DNA of 64,000 bases. Source: Myxococcales bacterium (GTDB taxonomy: Bacteria > Myxococcota > Myxococcia > Myxococcales > Myxococcaceae). Positions 20,518 to 39,620 of this stretch are shown here, piece after piece. Both the position numbers and the translations under genes were made by a program. How positions within the stretch are numbered: the first letter of the stretch is position 1; each line of letters begins with the position of its first letter. Below the pieces are notes generated by a model. It did not search any database. It saw only the letters and a list, made by a program, of their open reading frames with translations, and was not told where the DNA came from. The DNA lies in NCBI GenBank assembly GCA_020846875.1, contig JADLDB010000009.1, positions 62,001-126,000 on the forward strand. Direction: 5' to 3'.

Positions 20518-21408
20518 ATGGCCACCGAGGTGGCAGGTGGCTACCTTCCGTTCGCGATGAGCGGCCGCGGTGTCCTCTTCCTCTGTGTGGCGAACTCGGC
20601 GCGCAGCCAGATGGCCGAGGGCCTGGCGCGCCAACTCTTCGGCGATCGCTTCCCGGTGGCGAGCGCGGGCAGCGCCCCGTCGCGGGTGAATCCGTTTTCC
20701 GTCGAGGTGATGCGCGAAGTCGGCGTGGACGTGAGCGCCCACCGCTCGAAGTCCGTCGAGGAGATCGACGCCGCGACGGTCGGCACGGTCATCACCCTGT
20801 GCGCCGGGGAGGTGTGCCCGGTGCTCCTCGGGCGGGCGCGGCGCCTGCACTGGCCGATCGCCGATCCGGCGAGCAAGGACACGTCCCTGTCCGATGACGA
20901 GCTGCGGGCGCGGTTTCGCGCCGCGCGGGATCTCATCCAGGCGAAGCTGGCGCAGTGGGTGGCCGAGGGCGGCCTGGGCCCGGAGCCAGCGAGCGAGGGC
21001 GATCTCGACGCGGCGCGGGCGCTGGTCGCCTCCGCCGGCCTGCCGACGATTGGTGTGGAGGACGCTTTCCCCCGCGGCTACTCCGTCGTGCGCGGTGGAA
21101 ACGGCCTGCTCGGCGTGGCGGGACTCGAGGTGCACGGCGACGTGGGCCTGCTCCGCTCGGTGGCCGTGGTGCCCTCCAAGCAGCGCTCGGGCCTGGGCCG
21201 GTGCCTCGTCGAGGATCGGCTGGCCGCCGCGCGGGAGGCGACGCTGGGCGCGGTGTACCTGCTCACCACCACCGCGGCAGCGTGGTTCCGGAAGCTGGGC
21301 TTCGAGGACACGCCGCGCCAGGACCTGCCTGAGGCGCTGCGGCGCTCGACGGAGTTCGCCGCCGTGGGCCCGTCGTCTGCGACCTGCCTGGTGGAGCGGC
21401 TGGCCTGA
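20518..21408 (+). CDS. Fusion of arsenate reductase (LMW-PTP type) with ArsN2-like acetyltransferase
   Basis: 296 residues from ATG 20518 (alternative ATG 20557, closer to usual ArsC starts). Residues 17-150 are a low-molecular-weight phosphatase fold: [11 protein letters not shown] gives the CX5R loop (Cys23-Arg29), and [10 protein letters not shown] supplies two more Cys (95, 100) placed like the redox cascade of thioredoxin-linked ArsC. Residues ~160-296 are a GNAT domain: [22 protein letters not shown] (acetyl-CoA loop) and WFRKLGFED. Such fusions are known in arsenic operons, where GNAT ArsN proteins acetylate organoarsenicals. No arsB, acr3 or arsR is adjacent. It follows DUF819 by 7 bp. 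Confidence 0.88.
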
Positions 21409-34958: not shown

Positions 34959-35864
34959 TCAGCCCAGCCGCCCCACCAGCCACCACCAGGCGGGGACGGT
35001 GGCGAGGCTCAAGGGCACGCCCACGGCGATGAGGCCCGCGGCGAGCTTCGGCTCCAATTCGTACTCCGCGGCCAGCACCCCGCCCGTCACCATCGGCGCC
35101 ATCGCCGCCTGCGCCACCGCGACCCGCTCCGCCAGCCCCACCGTGGGCGCCGTCAGCCACACGAGCGCGAGCATCACCAGGGGCGCGACGAGCAACTTGT
35201 AGGCGAGGCCAACCGTCACGCGGCGCCCCTGGCCTCTCAGCGCCGAGGGCTCCAGTTGCCACCCGACGCTGGTGAGCGCGAGCGGACTCAACAGCAGCCC
35301 GAGCCCTCGCAAGCCGTCGTCCGCCCACTCGGGGAACGCTACCGGGCGCAGCGCAAAGGCCGCCACCAACGCGAGGAAGGGGGGAAACAGTACCGCGCGC
35401 CGCGCCACGAAGGCCGCCGACACGCGCCCGCCGGACAGCCACGCCGCCAGGGGCACCGCGCCCAGGCTCAGCGCGAAGAAGCTGCCGAGCTGATCGACCA
35501 CTACCGCGGGCCCAAGCGCCTCCTCTCCGCCCAGCGCCCGGAGCAGCGGCAGGCCCACGAAGGAGGTGTTGGCCAGCCCCGCGCAAAGCGCCAGTGCGCC
35601 GGCGACTGGGCGAGCGGTTCCTCGCCGCACTGCCAGCAGCGCCCCCACCGCGGCGAGCCCGAAGCACAGCCACAGCCCGAGCACCGGCACCACCAGCCGC
35701 GCCGACAGCGGCACCGCGTGAATGCTGCGCAGCACCACCGCCGGTAGACAGACGTACAGCACGGCTGCGTTGAGGAGCCGCGGAGTCTCGTTCGGCAGCT
35801 TCCCCGAGCGGCGCGCCGCCAGGCCCAGCGCCATGCACCCCAGCAAGAGCGCGAGGACGCTCAC
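34959..35864 (-). CDS. AEC (auxin efflux carrier) family transporter
   Basis: 301 residues with ten predicted membrane helices and no soluble domain. Family features: N-terminal helix then RRSGKLPNETPRLLNAAVLYVCLPAVVLRSI, the crossover segment GLANTSFVGLPLLRALGG, and a C-terminal half with PMVTGGVLAAEYELEPKLAAG. Members export or import small organic acids and amines by ion coupling. Substrate unknown. It follows the RNase D gene by 4 bp on the same strand. Confidence 0.88.
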   Translation of the reverse strand: MSVLALLLGCMALGLAARRSGKLPNETPRLLNAAVLYVCLPAVVLRSIHAVPLSARLVVPVLGLWLCFGLAAVGALLAVRRGTARPVAGALALCAGLANTSFVGLPLLRALGGEEALGPAVVVDQLGSFFALSLGAVPLAAWLSGGRVSAAFVARRAVLFPPFLALVAAFALRPVAFPEWADDGLRGLGLLLSPLALTSVGWQLEPSALRGQGRRVTVGLAYKLLVAPLVMLALVWLTAPTVGLAERVAVAQAAMAPMVTGGVLAAEYELEPKLAAGLIAVGVPLSLATVPAWWWLVGRLG

Positions 35865-35868
35865 GGCC

Positions 35869-37020
35869 TCACAGGTACGGCTTGAGCGCCGCCAGCAGCG
35901 ACTCCCCGTGCCGCGCGAGGCGCTTCTCGCCGAAGAAGGGCACCTGCCGTAGCTCGTCCAGCGAGCGCGGCGCGGTCGCGGCGATGCCCTCCACCAGGGC
36001 GTTGGGCAGCACCACCGACGGCGTCACCTTCCGCTCCGCCGCGGCGGCTTTGCGCCAGTCCATCAGTACGTCCTCGCGCTTCTTCGCACGGGGATCCTTC
36101 CGCTCCTTCTTGTCGAGATCCTCCAGGCCGCCGCCGTGCGCGCGCTGCTTGAAGGCCTCGAGGGTGGCCAGCACCTCGTCGCCGTGCTGGCGGACGAAGG
36201 CGCCGCGCACGCCCTGCTGCTTCGCCAGCTCGCGCAACGACGCGGGCGGCTTGGTGGCGATGGAGGCGATGGCCATGTTGGACAGCATGCGGCCCATCGG
36301 CACGTCCTCCGCCTCGGCCCATTTCAGCCGCAGGCGGTTCAGCTCCCGCGCGAGGTGCTGGGCCAGCCGCACCTGCTCGGCCGAGAGGCCCTGTCTGGGC
36401 AGCTTGACGTTGAGGGCCTCGGCGGGATCGGGCCGCGCCGCCGCGTCCTCGCACATCCGCTCGCAGTCCAGCACCACCTCTTCGAGGATGTCCGCGGCGA
36501 GGCAGGCGTCGCGCACCTTGCGGGCCACGTCCACCAGGTAGCGCACGTCGTCGGCGATGTACGCGCGCAGCTCGGGCGGCAGCGGGCGCAGCGAGAAGTC
36601 GGACTGCTGGTGCTCCTTCTGCAGCGTGGCGCCCAGGTGATCCTTCACCAGGTCCGCCAGGCCCACCTTCGGCCAGCCCAGCAGGGTGGCGGCGCGGTGG
36701 GTGTCGAACAAGCCCTTCACCCGCACGCCCGCCTCGGCCAGGTACTGCAGGTCGCCCTGCGCGGCGTGGAAGAACTTGGTGACGCTGCCGTCGGCGAAGA
36801 CGGGCGCCAACACGTCGGCGCGGACGTCGGGCGCGAGCGTGTCGACGAGGAACACTTCGGCGTCGGTGCCCAACTGCACGAAGCACAGCCGGGCGCGGAA
36901 GTGGTGCATGGCGTCGGCTTCGACGTCGACCGCCAGCTCCTTGACCGAGGCCAGCGCACTCGCGACCTCGAGGAGCGCCTGGGGGGTCGTGATGTCTTCG
37001 GCTCCGCCGGGGATCGCCAC
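35869..37020 (-). CDS. rnd: Ribonuclease D
   Basis: 383 residues from GTG 37018-37020; the upstream frame overlaps the divergent ttcA leader and is not protein-like. RNase D trims the 3' end of tRNA and other small stable RNAs. DEDDy exonuclease residues are visible: Asp32 and Glu34 in LAVDVEADAM, Asp90 in FHAAQGDLQYL, Tyr154 and Asp158 in RAYIADDVRYL. Two HRDC-like helical domains follow in the C-terminal half (LRLKWAEAEDVPMGRML and RSLDELRQVPFFGEKRL). Length is typical. Confidence 0.92.
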   Translation of the reverse strand: MAIPGGAEDITTPQALLEVASALASVKELAVDVEADAMHHFRARLCFVQLGTDAEVFLVDTLAPDVRADVLAPVFADGSVTKFFHAAQGDLQYLAEAGVRVKGLFDTHRAATLLGWPKVGLADLVKDHLGATLQKEHQQSDFSLRPLPPELRAYIADDVRYLVDVARKVRDACLAADILEEVVLDCERMCEDAAARPDPAEALNVKLPRQGLSAEQVRLAQHLARELNRLRLKWAEAEDVPMGRMLSNMAIASIATKPPASLRELAKQQGVRGAFVRQHGDEVLATLEAFKQRAHGGGLEDLDKKERKDPRAKKREDVLMDWRKAAAAERKVTPSVVLPNALVEGIAATAPRSLDELRQVPFFGEKRLARHGESLLAALKPYL

Positions 37021-37151
37021 GGGTGAGGCGCATAGCAGATGAAGGAGATCCCCGGAGAGGAGGAACCACGTGCTAGCCAAACGCCTCGAAGTGTGGGCTA
37101 TAGGCGCGCGCACCCGGCGGTCGGGAGGGGTCGCCGGGGGGGGAGTGATTC

Positions 37152-37997
37152 GTGTCCACACTGGCCCAACAGCACGAGGACGTGGCCCGGCTCGAGAAGG
37201 GTCTCTTGTCGTACGTCGGCAAGGCGATCCACGACTTCGAGCTCATCTCGGAGGGGGATCGAGTCCTGGTGGGCGTCTCCGGCGGCAAGGACTCGTACAC
37301 CCTGCTCCACTGCCTGCGCGCGCTGCAGAAGAAGGCGCCGGTGAAGTTCGAGCTCCTCGCCGTCAACCTCGATCAGGGCCACCCCGGCTACCCCGGGCAC
37401 CTGCTCGAAGGGTGGCTGAAGGAGAACGGCTACGAGTACCGCATGTTGAAGGAGGACACGTACTCCATCGTGCTGGAGAAGCTGGAGCCCGGGCAGACGC
37501 AGTGCAGCCTGTGCAGCCGGCTGCGCCGCGGCGTCCTCTACAACGCGGCGGTGGACTTAGGCTGCAACAAGATCGCGCTGGGGCACCACCGCGACGATCT
37601 GATCCACACGCTGTTGCTCAACCAGTTCTTCGCCGGCGCCACCGCCACCATGCCGCCGAAGCTCCGGAGCAACGACGGGCGCAACGTGGTCATCCGCCCG
37701 CTCGCCTACGTGCCGGAGGCCGACATCGTCCCCTTCGCGAAGGCGCTGGGCTTTCCGATCATCCCCTGCGACTTGTGCGGCTCGCAGGAGAACCTGAAGC
37801 GCGCCCGGGTGAAACGACTGGTGGACGAGCTGTCGAAGGAAATCCCCCACCTGCGCAGCTCGCTGCTCAAGGCGATGGGCAACCTGCACCTCTCGCACCT
37901 GCTCGATCAGCGCCACTTCACCGTCCCCACCGAGGACGCCCGGCCCGGCCCGACGCTGGTCCCCCTGTCCACCCCGGAGCCCCCCCATGCCGCGTAA
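37152..37997 (+). CDS. ttcA: tRNA 2-thiocytidine biosynthesis protein TtcA
   Basis: 281 residues from GTG 37152. It installs 2-thiocytidine at position 32 of some tRNAs, using ATP activation and an iron-sulfur cluster. PP-loop SGGKDS at 43-48; cluster cysteines in [13 protein letters not shown] (Cys118, Cys121) and a second pair in [14 protein letters not shown] (Cys206, Cys209); [19 protein letters not shown] is the second ATP-binding block. The tail after 260 is Pro-rich. Its last 11 bases overlap the next gene, making a three-gene operon with a TerB-like and a PhnD-like protein. Confidence 0.92.
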
Positions 37998-38811
37998 CGC
38001 CCTCGAGCAGGCCCGCCGCGATCGAAACGCCGCGCTGATCGACGCGATGATCCTCGCGGCCAGCGCCGACGGGCAGCTGCTGCCGGTGGAGGTGCAGACC
38101 GTCATCCAGCGGGTCATCGAGCGGCCGGAGTTCGAAGGCGTGGCGGCCACCGAGTTGTCGGGGATGGTGGAGGCCTCGGCGCGGCGGCTGTCCCAGGCCC
38201 GCGCGCTGGAAGACATCCTGAACGCGCTCAAGGCCCGGCTGCCGGATCACCGCAACCGGCTGCTGGCCTTCGGGCTGGCCACAGCGGTGGCGCTGGCAGA
38301 TCGCCGGACGCAGCAGGACGAGCTGAGCCTGCTCAAGACGATGCAGCAGGCCCTGGGCATCTCGGACCAGGAGGTGTCGCGCGTCTTCGAGGTGGTGGAG
38401 AAGGGCGAGTCGTTGGCCATGGCGCTGGGCGAGCCGCTGGAGCGCCTGTACGCCGAGACGATGGTGCTGGTGTCCGCCGCCGACGGGGAGGTGCAGCCCG
38501 CCGAGCTCAAGCGAATCCTCGAGGAGCTGGCTGGCGACCCCGTCTTCAAGGACGTCTCCCTGGAGAGCGCCGATCACTACCTGCGCGACGCGGTGCAGAA
38601 CCTGGCCACCGAGGGGCTCCCGCAGCGTCTCACCGTGCTGGCCCACGGCCTCAGCACCCACGCGCAGCGCACCCGGGCCTTCCGGCTGGCGGTGCGGGTG
38701 GCCTGGGCGGAAGGCAAGCCGTCGGCCGACGGGCTGCGCGCGCTGGAGCTTCTGCAGGCCACCTTCGGGCTGGCGGACGACGAGGTCGCGCGCATCACCT
38801 CGGAGGGATGA
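37987..38811 (+). CDS. TerB-like protein with two acidic-helix repeats
   Basis: 274 residues, all helical. Two similar halves each begin with the TerB-type pattern: [20 protein letters not shown] (near residue 17) and [19 protein letters not shown] (near 157). Each has the A-x-DG turn that in TerB binds metal, and a middle segment [18 protein letters not shown] resembles a third. TerB domains occur in stress-response and signalling proteins and are cytoplasmic. The gene starts inside ttcA and overlaps the PhnD-like gene (ATGA), so all three are tightly coupled. Confidence 0.82.
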
Positions 38812-39620
38812 ACGTGAGCCGGGACGAGTACGCCGCGCTGCAGTTCGCCCTGCCCCCCTCGCTGGGGACGGAGCTGGGGACGCGGTCGAAGCTCCTGCAG
38901 GACTACCTGAAGAAGGCGCTGGGGCGAGACGCGGCGGTGGTGACGCCGGGCAGCTACGAGCAACTGGCGCGCGAGCTGCTCGCGGGCAAGGTGGACGCGG
39001 CGTGGGCCCCGCCCTTCGTGTGCGCGCGGATCGAGGCGATGGGCGTGCGGGTGCTGGTGCGGGGCGTGCGCAACGGCGCGTCGACGTACCGGGCGGCGCT
39101 GGTGTGCCGCAAAGACGCCAACGTGACGCTGGAGACGCTGCAGGGCACCACCGCCGCCTGGAGCGATCGCGACTCGGTGGGCGGGTACCTCTTACCGATG
39201 GCCTTTCTGCGCGAGAAGGGCCTCGAGCCCTTGCGCACCTTCTTCCGCCAGGACTTCCTGGGCAGCTACCGCGCCACGCTGGAGGCGGTGGCCGCGGGGA
39301 AGGCGGACGTCACCAGCCTGTTCGCGCCCTCGGCGAAGGGCGGCCAGGCGCAGGGGACGGGCAGCGACGAGGTGTGGCCGGGCCACGAGGGCGACTTCAA
39401 GGTGATCGCCTACACCGAGGACGCGCCCAACGACGGCGTCGCGGTGTCCATGGGGCTCAACGGCGCGGTGGTGACGGAGCTGGAGAAGGCGCTGCTCAAC
39501 CTGCACCAGTCGCCCGAAGGCCAGGCGGTGCTGAAGGACTGCTTCCACGCGGAGAAGTTCGAGGTGTCGCCCCGCATGGGGTACCGCGCGCTGTACCGGG
39601 TGGCGCTGGCCAGCCTCTGA
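38808..39620 (+). CDS. PhnD-like type 2 periplasmic-binding-fold protein without signal peptide
   Basis: 270 residues. Fold markers of phosphonate/phosphite-binding proteins: a start strand (LQFALPPSLG), LLQDYLKKALGRDAAVV, DAAWAPPFVCARIEAMGV, then AWSDRDSVGGYLLPMAFL and FLGSYRATLEAVAAGKADV, where solute-binding homologues contact the ligand. The first residues [13 protein letters not shown] are polar, so there is no secretion signal and no lipobox; no ABC permease is nearby. It is likely a cytoplasmic sensor-like protein rather than a transporter subunit. The start overlaps the TerB-like stop by 4 bp. Confidence 0.82.
   Translation: MNVSRDEYAALQFALPPSLGTELGTRSKLLQDYLKKALGRDAAVVTPGSYEQLARELLAGKVDAAWAPPFVCARIEAMGVRVLVRGVRNGASTYRAALVCRKDANVTLETLQGTTAAWSDRDSVGGYLLPMAFLREKGLEPLRTFFRQDFLGSYRATLEAVAAGKADVTSLFAPSAKGGQAQGTGSDEVWPGHEGDFKVIAYTEDAPNDGVAVSMGLNGAVVTELEKALLNLHQSPEGQAVLKDCFHAEKFEVSPRMGYRALYRVALASL

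Follow-up and report, generated by a model that had tools for sequence, protein, structure and literature searches.

A PhnD-fold protein without export signal as a candidate ligand sensor in the ttcA-terB operon of Myxococcaceae

The third gene of a tight co-directional ttcA - tandem-TerB - phnD-like operon, found in the 7.06 Mb genome of a Myxococcales bacterium, encodes a protein with a predicted type II solute-binding fold of the PhnD/AioX/ArrX kind. It is proposed here, with chances judged to be slightly better than even, that this protein stands outside transport and serves as a non-classical ligand sensor modulating TtcA. Going by its sequence, it probably works inside the cell, as a sensor or a helper, and is not a part of a transporter.

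Gene order and neighbourhood

The window is the whole stretch of 64,000 nucleotides that was analysed, and its features of interest are collected in Table 1. The original prediction placed the phnD-like gene in an operon headed by ttcA and containing a TerB-like gene, and on this the coordinates and the domain matches agree. Neighbouring ABC genes, said to be missing, are indeed not found among the flanking genes covered by the domain scan, which besides ttcA and terB comprise the RNase D-like gene, DUF4079, a weak zf-HC2 match, an ECF sigma factor, an M20 peptidase and AstA. The start of the divergent RNase D-like reading frame probably lies too far upstream; most of its orthologue matches start at residue at least 26, with L077 as the exception. 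The window holds no Rfam match at gathering score, and a scan limited to one promoter type, the sigma-70-like one, found neither such a promoter nor a terminator near the operon.

Table 1. Features of the window, with positions counted from its first letter
Feature	Position	Strand	Basis
ttcA, tRNA 2-thiocytidine(32) synthetase	37152..37997	+	NF007972 E 1.8e-114, above its cut-off
Tandem TerB-like cytoplasmic protein (predicted)	37987..38811	+	PF05099, 2 stretches, E 3.3e-13
PhnD-fold cytoplasmic protein (predicted), changed pocket	38808..39620	+	PF12974 (Phosphonate-bd) E 1.9e-42; 270 aa
RNase D-like gene (3'-5' exonuclease + HRDC), divergent	35869..37161	-	domain scan; conserved upstream neighbour
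Codons 123-125 (Ser-Val-Gly), place of the Ser-Thr-Ser anion-binding motif	39174..39182	+	profile alignment to Ps_PtxB and AioX; column counts
Codon 154 (Tyr), place of the anion-binding His	39267..39269	+	profile alignment; column counts
Chemoreceptor-like protein, 1040 aa	46334-49456	-	N-terminal TM helices, MCP signalling domain (252-414), C-terminal SBP_bac_5 (606-957)

It was also stated earlier that the window contains a second intracellular solute-binding fold. This fold exists as the SBP_bac_5 domain of the chemoreceptor-like protein, in which hydropathy gives no further TM helix after the N-terminal ones and thereby puts the domain on the cytoplasmic side. Another fused protein of the window (20518-21408, + strand) joins a low-molecular-weight phosphatase domain to a GNAT acetyltransferase domain.

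Predicted fold and putative pocket

The AlphaFold2 model built from 35 orthologues has a mean pLDDT of 89.9, and the protein combines a PF12974 domain with a type II binding-protein fold, the latter seen in this predicted model. In alignments of the model the closest solved structure is ArrX (6x8w; Z 28.4, rmsd 2.3, 250 aligned residues), followed by AioX (6esv; Z 27.5, rmsd 2.6, 252 residues), PtxB (5o2j; Z 25.9, rmsd 2.6, 250 residues) and PhnD (3quj; Z 25.7, rmsd 2.7, 248 residues), with transferrin lobes next at Z of about 21.

The pocket was mapped by profile alignment to Ps_PtxB and AioX, with contact residues taken from PMC5700983 and PMC5908839 (these papers, like those cited below, are quoted from excerpts) and with Tyr 88, Tyr 131, Ser 161, Ser 163, His 192 and Asp 210 as the reference positions of AioX. 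According to the same excerpts, PhnD, PtxB and AioX bind oxyanions by a Ser-Thr-Ser/His site (PMC5700983, PMC5908839). Among the 35 operon orthologues the two pocket tyrosines are retained, Tyr50 in 34 and Tyr94 in 32 of them. At the place of the Ser-Thr-Ser motif the first residue, S123, is S in 29, A in 5 and L in 1, the middle one, V124, is V in 31, L in 3 and I in 1, and the third, G125, is G in 21, A in 13 and T in 1; the place of the His is taken by Y154 (Y 33, F 2), that of AioX Asp210 by F172 (F 34, Y 1) and that of AioX Cys106 by P68 in 35/35. The STS-H anion-binding motif is not kept, and the AioX-type set is incomplete: both Tyr and mostly the first Ser are there, whereas AioX Ser163 (the second Ser of the set), His192, Asp210 and Cys106 stand against Gly/Ala in 34 of 35 sequences and against Tyr/Phe, Phe/Tyr and Pro in 35/35 each. 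A cytoplasmic sensor of a small anion had been predicted, and the comparison bears this out only in part: the fold, the two tyrosines and mostly Ser123 are there, while the His and the third Ser turned out to be replaced.

The pocket columns are nevertheless more uniform than expected of random columns. The majority residue of the 8 mapped columns averages 0.889 in the operon rows against 0.682 over columns 12-255, a value reached by 137 of 20,000 random 8-column sets, and over all 70 cytoplasmic rows the figures are 0.787 and 0.560, with 69 of 20,000 random sets as high; the random columns include surface loops, and the test speaks of constraint and says nothing on ligand binding. These column counts show an altered pocket under constraint; a pocket in simple decay would not be expected to stand above random sets.

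Cytoplasmic and exported relatives

A joint alignment of 74 rows was used for comparison (Table 2), in which the exported rows have signal-like N-termini. The loss of the His and the third Ser is common to all 19 N-terminal domains of kinases and to most stand-alone cytoplasmic copies, although at column 154 residues other than His, Tyr or Phe stand in 3 of the 16 stand-alone rows and 4 of the 16 keep Ser at column 125. Within these rows, columns 125, 154 and 72 set the cytoplasmic branch apart and Val124 does so for the operon group; 4 stand-alone rows have Val124 too, and Val124 and Phe172 are weak markers, the exported rows varying there (Ala at 124 and Tyr at 172, each in 3/4). Trp66, Trp118 and Arg95 are each present in 3/4 exported rows, and R81, R85 and R88 in 17, 19 and 19 of the 19 kinase rows.

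Table 2. Rows of the joint alignment with the given residue
Column and residue	Operon (35)	Stand-alone (16)	Kinase (19)	Exported (4)
154 His	0	0	0	4
154 Tyr/Phe	35	13	19	0
125 Ser/Thr	1	4	0	4
72 Cys	33	13	19	0
123 Ser	29	16	19	4
124 Thr	0	5	17	1
88 Arg	35	16	19	3

At the thresholds used, 18 of the 19 kinase rows combine an N-terminal PF12974 with HATPase_c, 16 of these 18 having HisKA and 11 PAS_4, and the remaining row, L117, shows PF12974 and PAS_4 only. The PhnD-domain histidine kinases (L101-L116, L068 and L069) are about 720-780 aa long and occur in several genera of the family; a profile search found none in the genome of the window itself. The hydropathy test covered the 16 full-length kinases L101-L116, leaving L068 and L069 aside, and its highest 19-residue value of 1.54, with no predicted TM helix, argues for their being soluble. 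Several stand-alone copies (for example L067, L070, L071, L080, L121 and L122) have an uncertain start codon and are likely not exported. A tree built quickly from 62 of the alignment's 74 rows, with long branches and only 4 exported controls, separates 58 cytoplasmic rows from the 4 exported ones by a single branch (SH-aLRT 99). Its 14 kinase rows group as a single clade (99), and 2 changes are needed for the operon rows, among which the in-family stand-alone copy L042 falls. The stand-alone copies adjoin varied genes (PilZ, protein kinase, FHA, rhomboid, acyl-CoA dehydrogenase, Hsp90 and others), and no consistent clue to a ligand comes from the neighbours of the kinases and stand-alone relatives.

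The genome of the window also encodes an exported paralogue (L001, contig C52) with a lipoprotein-like signal and with Ser-Thr-Thr and His at the aligned places. Its gene adjoins a HAMP-GGDEF diguanylate cyclase, a pair which we take to resemble the XAC2383/XAC2382 pair of Xanthomonas.

Anion sensor or ligand-free scaffold

The protein could detect one of the small inorganic anions phosphate, phosphite, hypophosphite, arsenate or thiosulfate in the cytoplasm and be coupled to tRNA thiolation or to a TerB-type stress response, and this we regard as rather unlikely. Its nearest solved folds, ArrX, AioX, PtxB and PhnD, are oxyanion binders, Y50, Y94 and S123 mostly remain, Arg85 and Arg88, both invariant, might bind an anion, and PhnD-type domains of sensor kinases are reported as sensors of thiosulfate and probably of tetrathionate in the excerpt of PMC5408782. 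Some of this counts directly against a sensor of a non-classical ligand, since Ser123 occurs in 29/35 operon rows and in every one of the 35 other cytoplasmic rows, stand-alone or kinase, Thr124 is retained by 17/19 of the related kinases, and HtxB, with Phe158 at the His position, still binds hypophosphite (PMC5700983, excerpt). All 35 orthologues have another residue in place of the His and 34 have one in place of the third Ser, and this makes a classical oxyanion ligand, on the sequences, less likely, with HtxB as the precedent in its favour; the Val/Leu/Ile at the middle position and the Phe/Tyr at the Asp210 place, both in 35/35, speak the same way with lesser weight, as exported rows vary there too.

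It is improbable, in our estimate, that the protein is a ligand-free scaffold, that is a protein- or RNA-binding module aiding TtcA, for instance in tRNA presentation. Six arginines (R74, R81, R85, R88, R95 and R260) kept in 35/35 operon orthologues, a very conserved C-terminus (GYRALYRVALASL) and the acidic TerB partner suggest binding surfaces, and a scaffold would show conservation as well. Nevertheless, the columns mapped to the pocket rank with the better conserved ones and the kinases begin with the same domain, both of which suggest ligand sensing; R81, R85 and R88 are common to the kinases and therefore not specific to a partner of ttcA. A sensor of a non-classical ligand is the reading preferred here.

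Conservation of the operon

The gene order was checked in other Myxococcota, where it is kept within the family and absent at the loci checked in other families. Of the 96 family genomes (own genome included), 81 have ttcA and the phnD-like gene on one strand within 1 kb of each other, and the junctions are tight or overlapping. The 12 ttcA loci that represent other families of the class (L085-L096) were all without a match to terB or phnD in downstream flanks of 1.4 to 7.0 kb. A class-wide search matched the TtcA model in 145/147 genomes and the phnD-like protein, paralogues included, in 125/147 at E <= 0.001. The close relatives of the phnD-like protein come from records named Archangium, Archangiaceae, Myxococcales and Hyalangium, and a contig scan with one query sequence found 6 of them. 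Loss of the operon order in close relatives, which would have spoken against the operon, was looked for and did not appear.

In seven family genomes (G053, G060, G064, G067, G088, G102 and G115) ttcA and the phnD-like gene lie on different contigs, and in each of them phnD or terB stands at a contig end. Six others have ttcA and no listed phnD orthologue: in G063 the contig stops 54 bases after the ttcA match, G092 keeps ttcA-terB and lacks phnD with about 5 kb of downstream sequence present, the three reduced genomes G125-G127 keep ttcA with neither terB nor phnD, and G051 has a ttcA locus (L097) with neither partner. Neither gene is listed for G054 and G124, which give weak matches only. L100, a further ttcA copy found in a genome of the family, has no terB or phnD match within its flanks. 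In G090 (L057) phnD follows 1 bp after ttcA and TerB is unmatched genome-wide at E <= 1e-10, which is possibly a natural deletion of terB.

Only rnd, ttcA, terB and phnD, out of nine window query genes, recur in distant genera in the flanks fetched, which shows the block to be better preserved than the genes around it. Matches to ecf, M20, AstA and the membrane-transporter gene at 34959-35864 were confined to closer relatives (few of them for the first three), the DUF4079 neighbour was matched in none of the family loci, and the block persists across genera in which the identity of the phnD-like protein falls to about 45%. General synteny was considered as the cause of the ttcA-phnD adjacency and rejected, as these neighbours, serving as internal controls, change while rnd, ttcA, terB and phnD stay. 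A chance match was ruled out by the E-values and the family-wide conservation.

That the phnD-like gene merely hitch-hikes, unrelated to TtcA and sharing its promoter in this family only, seems to us quite improbable. The cytoplasmic relatives in unrelated contexts would agree with it, as would the 12 loci of other families, at which TtcA does without a phnD partner and which count against a link to TtcA together with the lone ttcA of G125-G127. It is opposed by the persistence of the block among changing neighbours and by L057, where phnD still directly follows ttcA with terB unmatched.

Start codon and missing export signal

The original prediction described a polar N-terminus without export signal, and this agrees with low hydropathy both here and in the orthologues. 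Within the first 40 aa, the highest Kyte-Doolittle mean over 19 residues is 0.28 for the window protein and ranges from -0.36 to 1.02 in the 35 orthologues, whose N-termini are short and polar; the exported relative L119 gives 1.9 for comparison. The highest 19-residue hydropathy, 1.09, indicates no TM helix. An in-frame upstream start encoding a signal peptide was searched for: the phnD-like frame contains no ATG, GTG or TTG upstream, back to the stop at 37995, and its GC by codon position there (0.96/0.78/0.48) is of a non-coding pattern, compared with 0.70/0.48/0.97 in the gene. Because of these two observations a hidden signal peptide is ruled out, the upstream stops of orthologues adding to this: 18 of 39 operon loci (a few single genomes being included under two ids) have one in frame 5 to 18 codons before the match. 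A cytoplasmic location without signal peptide is thus supported on sequence grounds.

A Shine-Dalgarno-like GGAGGG at 38802-38807 abuts the ATG at 38808 and lies six bases before a GTG at 38814. This spacing suits the GTG better, which may be the true start, and therefore the overlap with the TerB-like gene given in the earlier description, 4 bp for the ATG, may instead be a 2-bp gap.

An ordinary phosphonate-type ABC binding protein with a missed signal peptide or an unusual export route, as the Pfam and NCBIfam names would have it, is very hard to reconcile with the start-free upstream frame, the upstream stops of the orthologues, the absence of ABC genes among the scanned neighbours and the exported paralogue encoded elsewhere in the same genome.

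TtcA and TerB partners

The window ttcA has SGGKDS and two Cys-x-x-Cys motifs; in the family, SGGKDS is found in 34/35 ttcA reading frames, the exception being cut by the end of its locus, and both Cys-x-x-Cys motifs in 35/35. According to the excerpt of PMC6082896, TtcA depends on an Fe-S cluster, and H2O2 induces it in Pseudomonas aeruginosa; a signal connected with redox state or sulfur is for this reason a sensible starting guess, though only that.

The TerB-like protein matches PF05099 above the cut-off with its DG....E motif, and D-G and the later E of both repeats are kept in 19 to 21 of 21 sequences. It is acidic, with a pI of 5.0 in the window and a median of 5.26 over the 21. Its predicted model has a pTM of 0.57, and Foldseek returned no match at E <= 0.001; a literature search of limited scope found no papers on TerB domain function. 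Outside the family (e.g. G005:C64 and G010:C100) the TerB relatives match over about 130 residues, mostly of the first half, and sit on contigs other than that of the best ttcA match.

Proposed role

What we infer about ligand, partner and effect can be put as follows. The PhnD-fold protein would open and close, by analogy with its relatives, on an intracellular ligand, probably not a classical oxyanion, held at the putative site of Tyr50, Tyr94, Ser123, Val124, Gly125, Tyr154 and Phe172. Through protein contact the ligand state would reach TtcA or its product, perhaps relayed by the acidic TerB protein, and s2C32 thiolation of tRNA would be adjusted as the outcome. Operon conservation is the one line of evidence that points to coupling with tRNA thiolation. 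Coupling with TerB, also part of the original prediction, appears weaker, because G090 keeps ttcA-phnD without TerB and G092 keeps ttcA-terB without phnD; terB is nearly always in the operon, and it would make a natural go-between, yet one seemingly dispensable to the ttcA-phnD pair of G090.

A wider view, which we offer as unlikely but worth stating, is that a myxobacterial intracellular branch of the PhnD fold reads a cytosolic metabolite, with one member gating TtcA and its sisters feeding soluble kinases. If true, tRNA C32 thiolation would be directly controlled by a ligand, and a related signal would enter soluble histidine kinases via the sister domains.

Comparison with known systems and significance

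The arsenate-binding ArrX and the arsenite-binding AioX, closest to the model, are sensory and not transport proteins (PMC5908839, excerpt). They are periplasmic, in contrast to the phnD-like protein, which has no export signal and whose gene is not next to a kinase. With the ABC proteins PhnD, PtxB and HtxB it shares PF12974, the fold (Z 23 to 26) and the two pocket tyrosines, and with HtxB the missing His, but it lacks their signal peptide, adjacent ABC genes and STS-H motif. TtrS and ThsS use a PhnD domain for sensing, and relatives of the phnD-like protein head histidine kinases; for TtrS the sensing is described as periplasmic (PMC5408782, excerpt), whereas 16 of the myxobacterial kinases have no predicted TM helix and the phnD-like protein has no kinase part at all.

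The phnD-like protein has, by its sequence and predicted model, the features of a cytosolic solute-binding fold: the fold itself, no export signal and no TM helix. Cytosolic examples of what solute-binding profiles recognise are MqnA, HisG and the effector domains of LysR. Solute-binding Pfam profiles are reported to match cytosolic proteins and cytosolic sensor domains too, and since this is stated in the excerpt of PMC9602780 the kind is already known. In a literature search of limited depth we found no published account of a PhnD-type cytosolic protein tied to tRNA thiolation, nor of a ttcA-terB-phnD-like operon or a cytoplasmic PhnD-fold branch. To our knowledge, no dedicated ligand-binding regulator of tRNA thiolation enzymes has been described.

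A conserved and purifiable operon partner makes the question of such a regulator directly testable. A two-position signature, Tyr for the His and Gly/Ala for the third Ser, is available for finding more members. For myxobacteria, the annotation “phosphonate ABC transporter substrate-binding protein” should be taken with care, as neither export nor phosphonate binding need follow from it.
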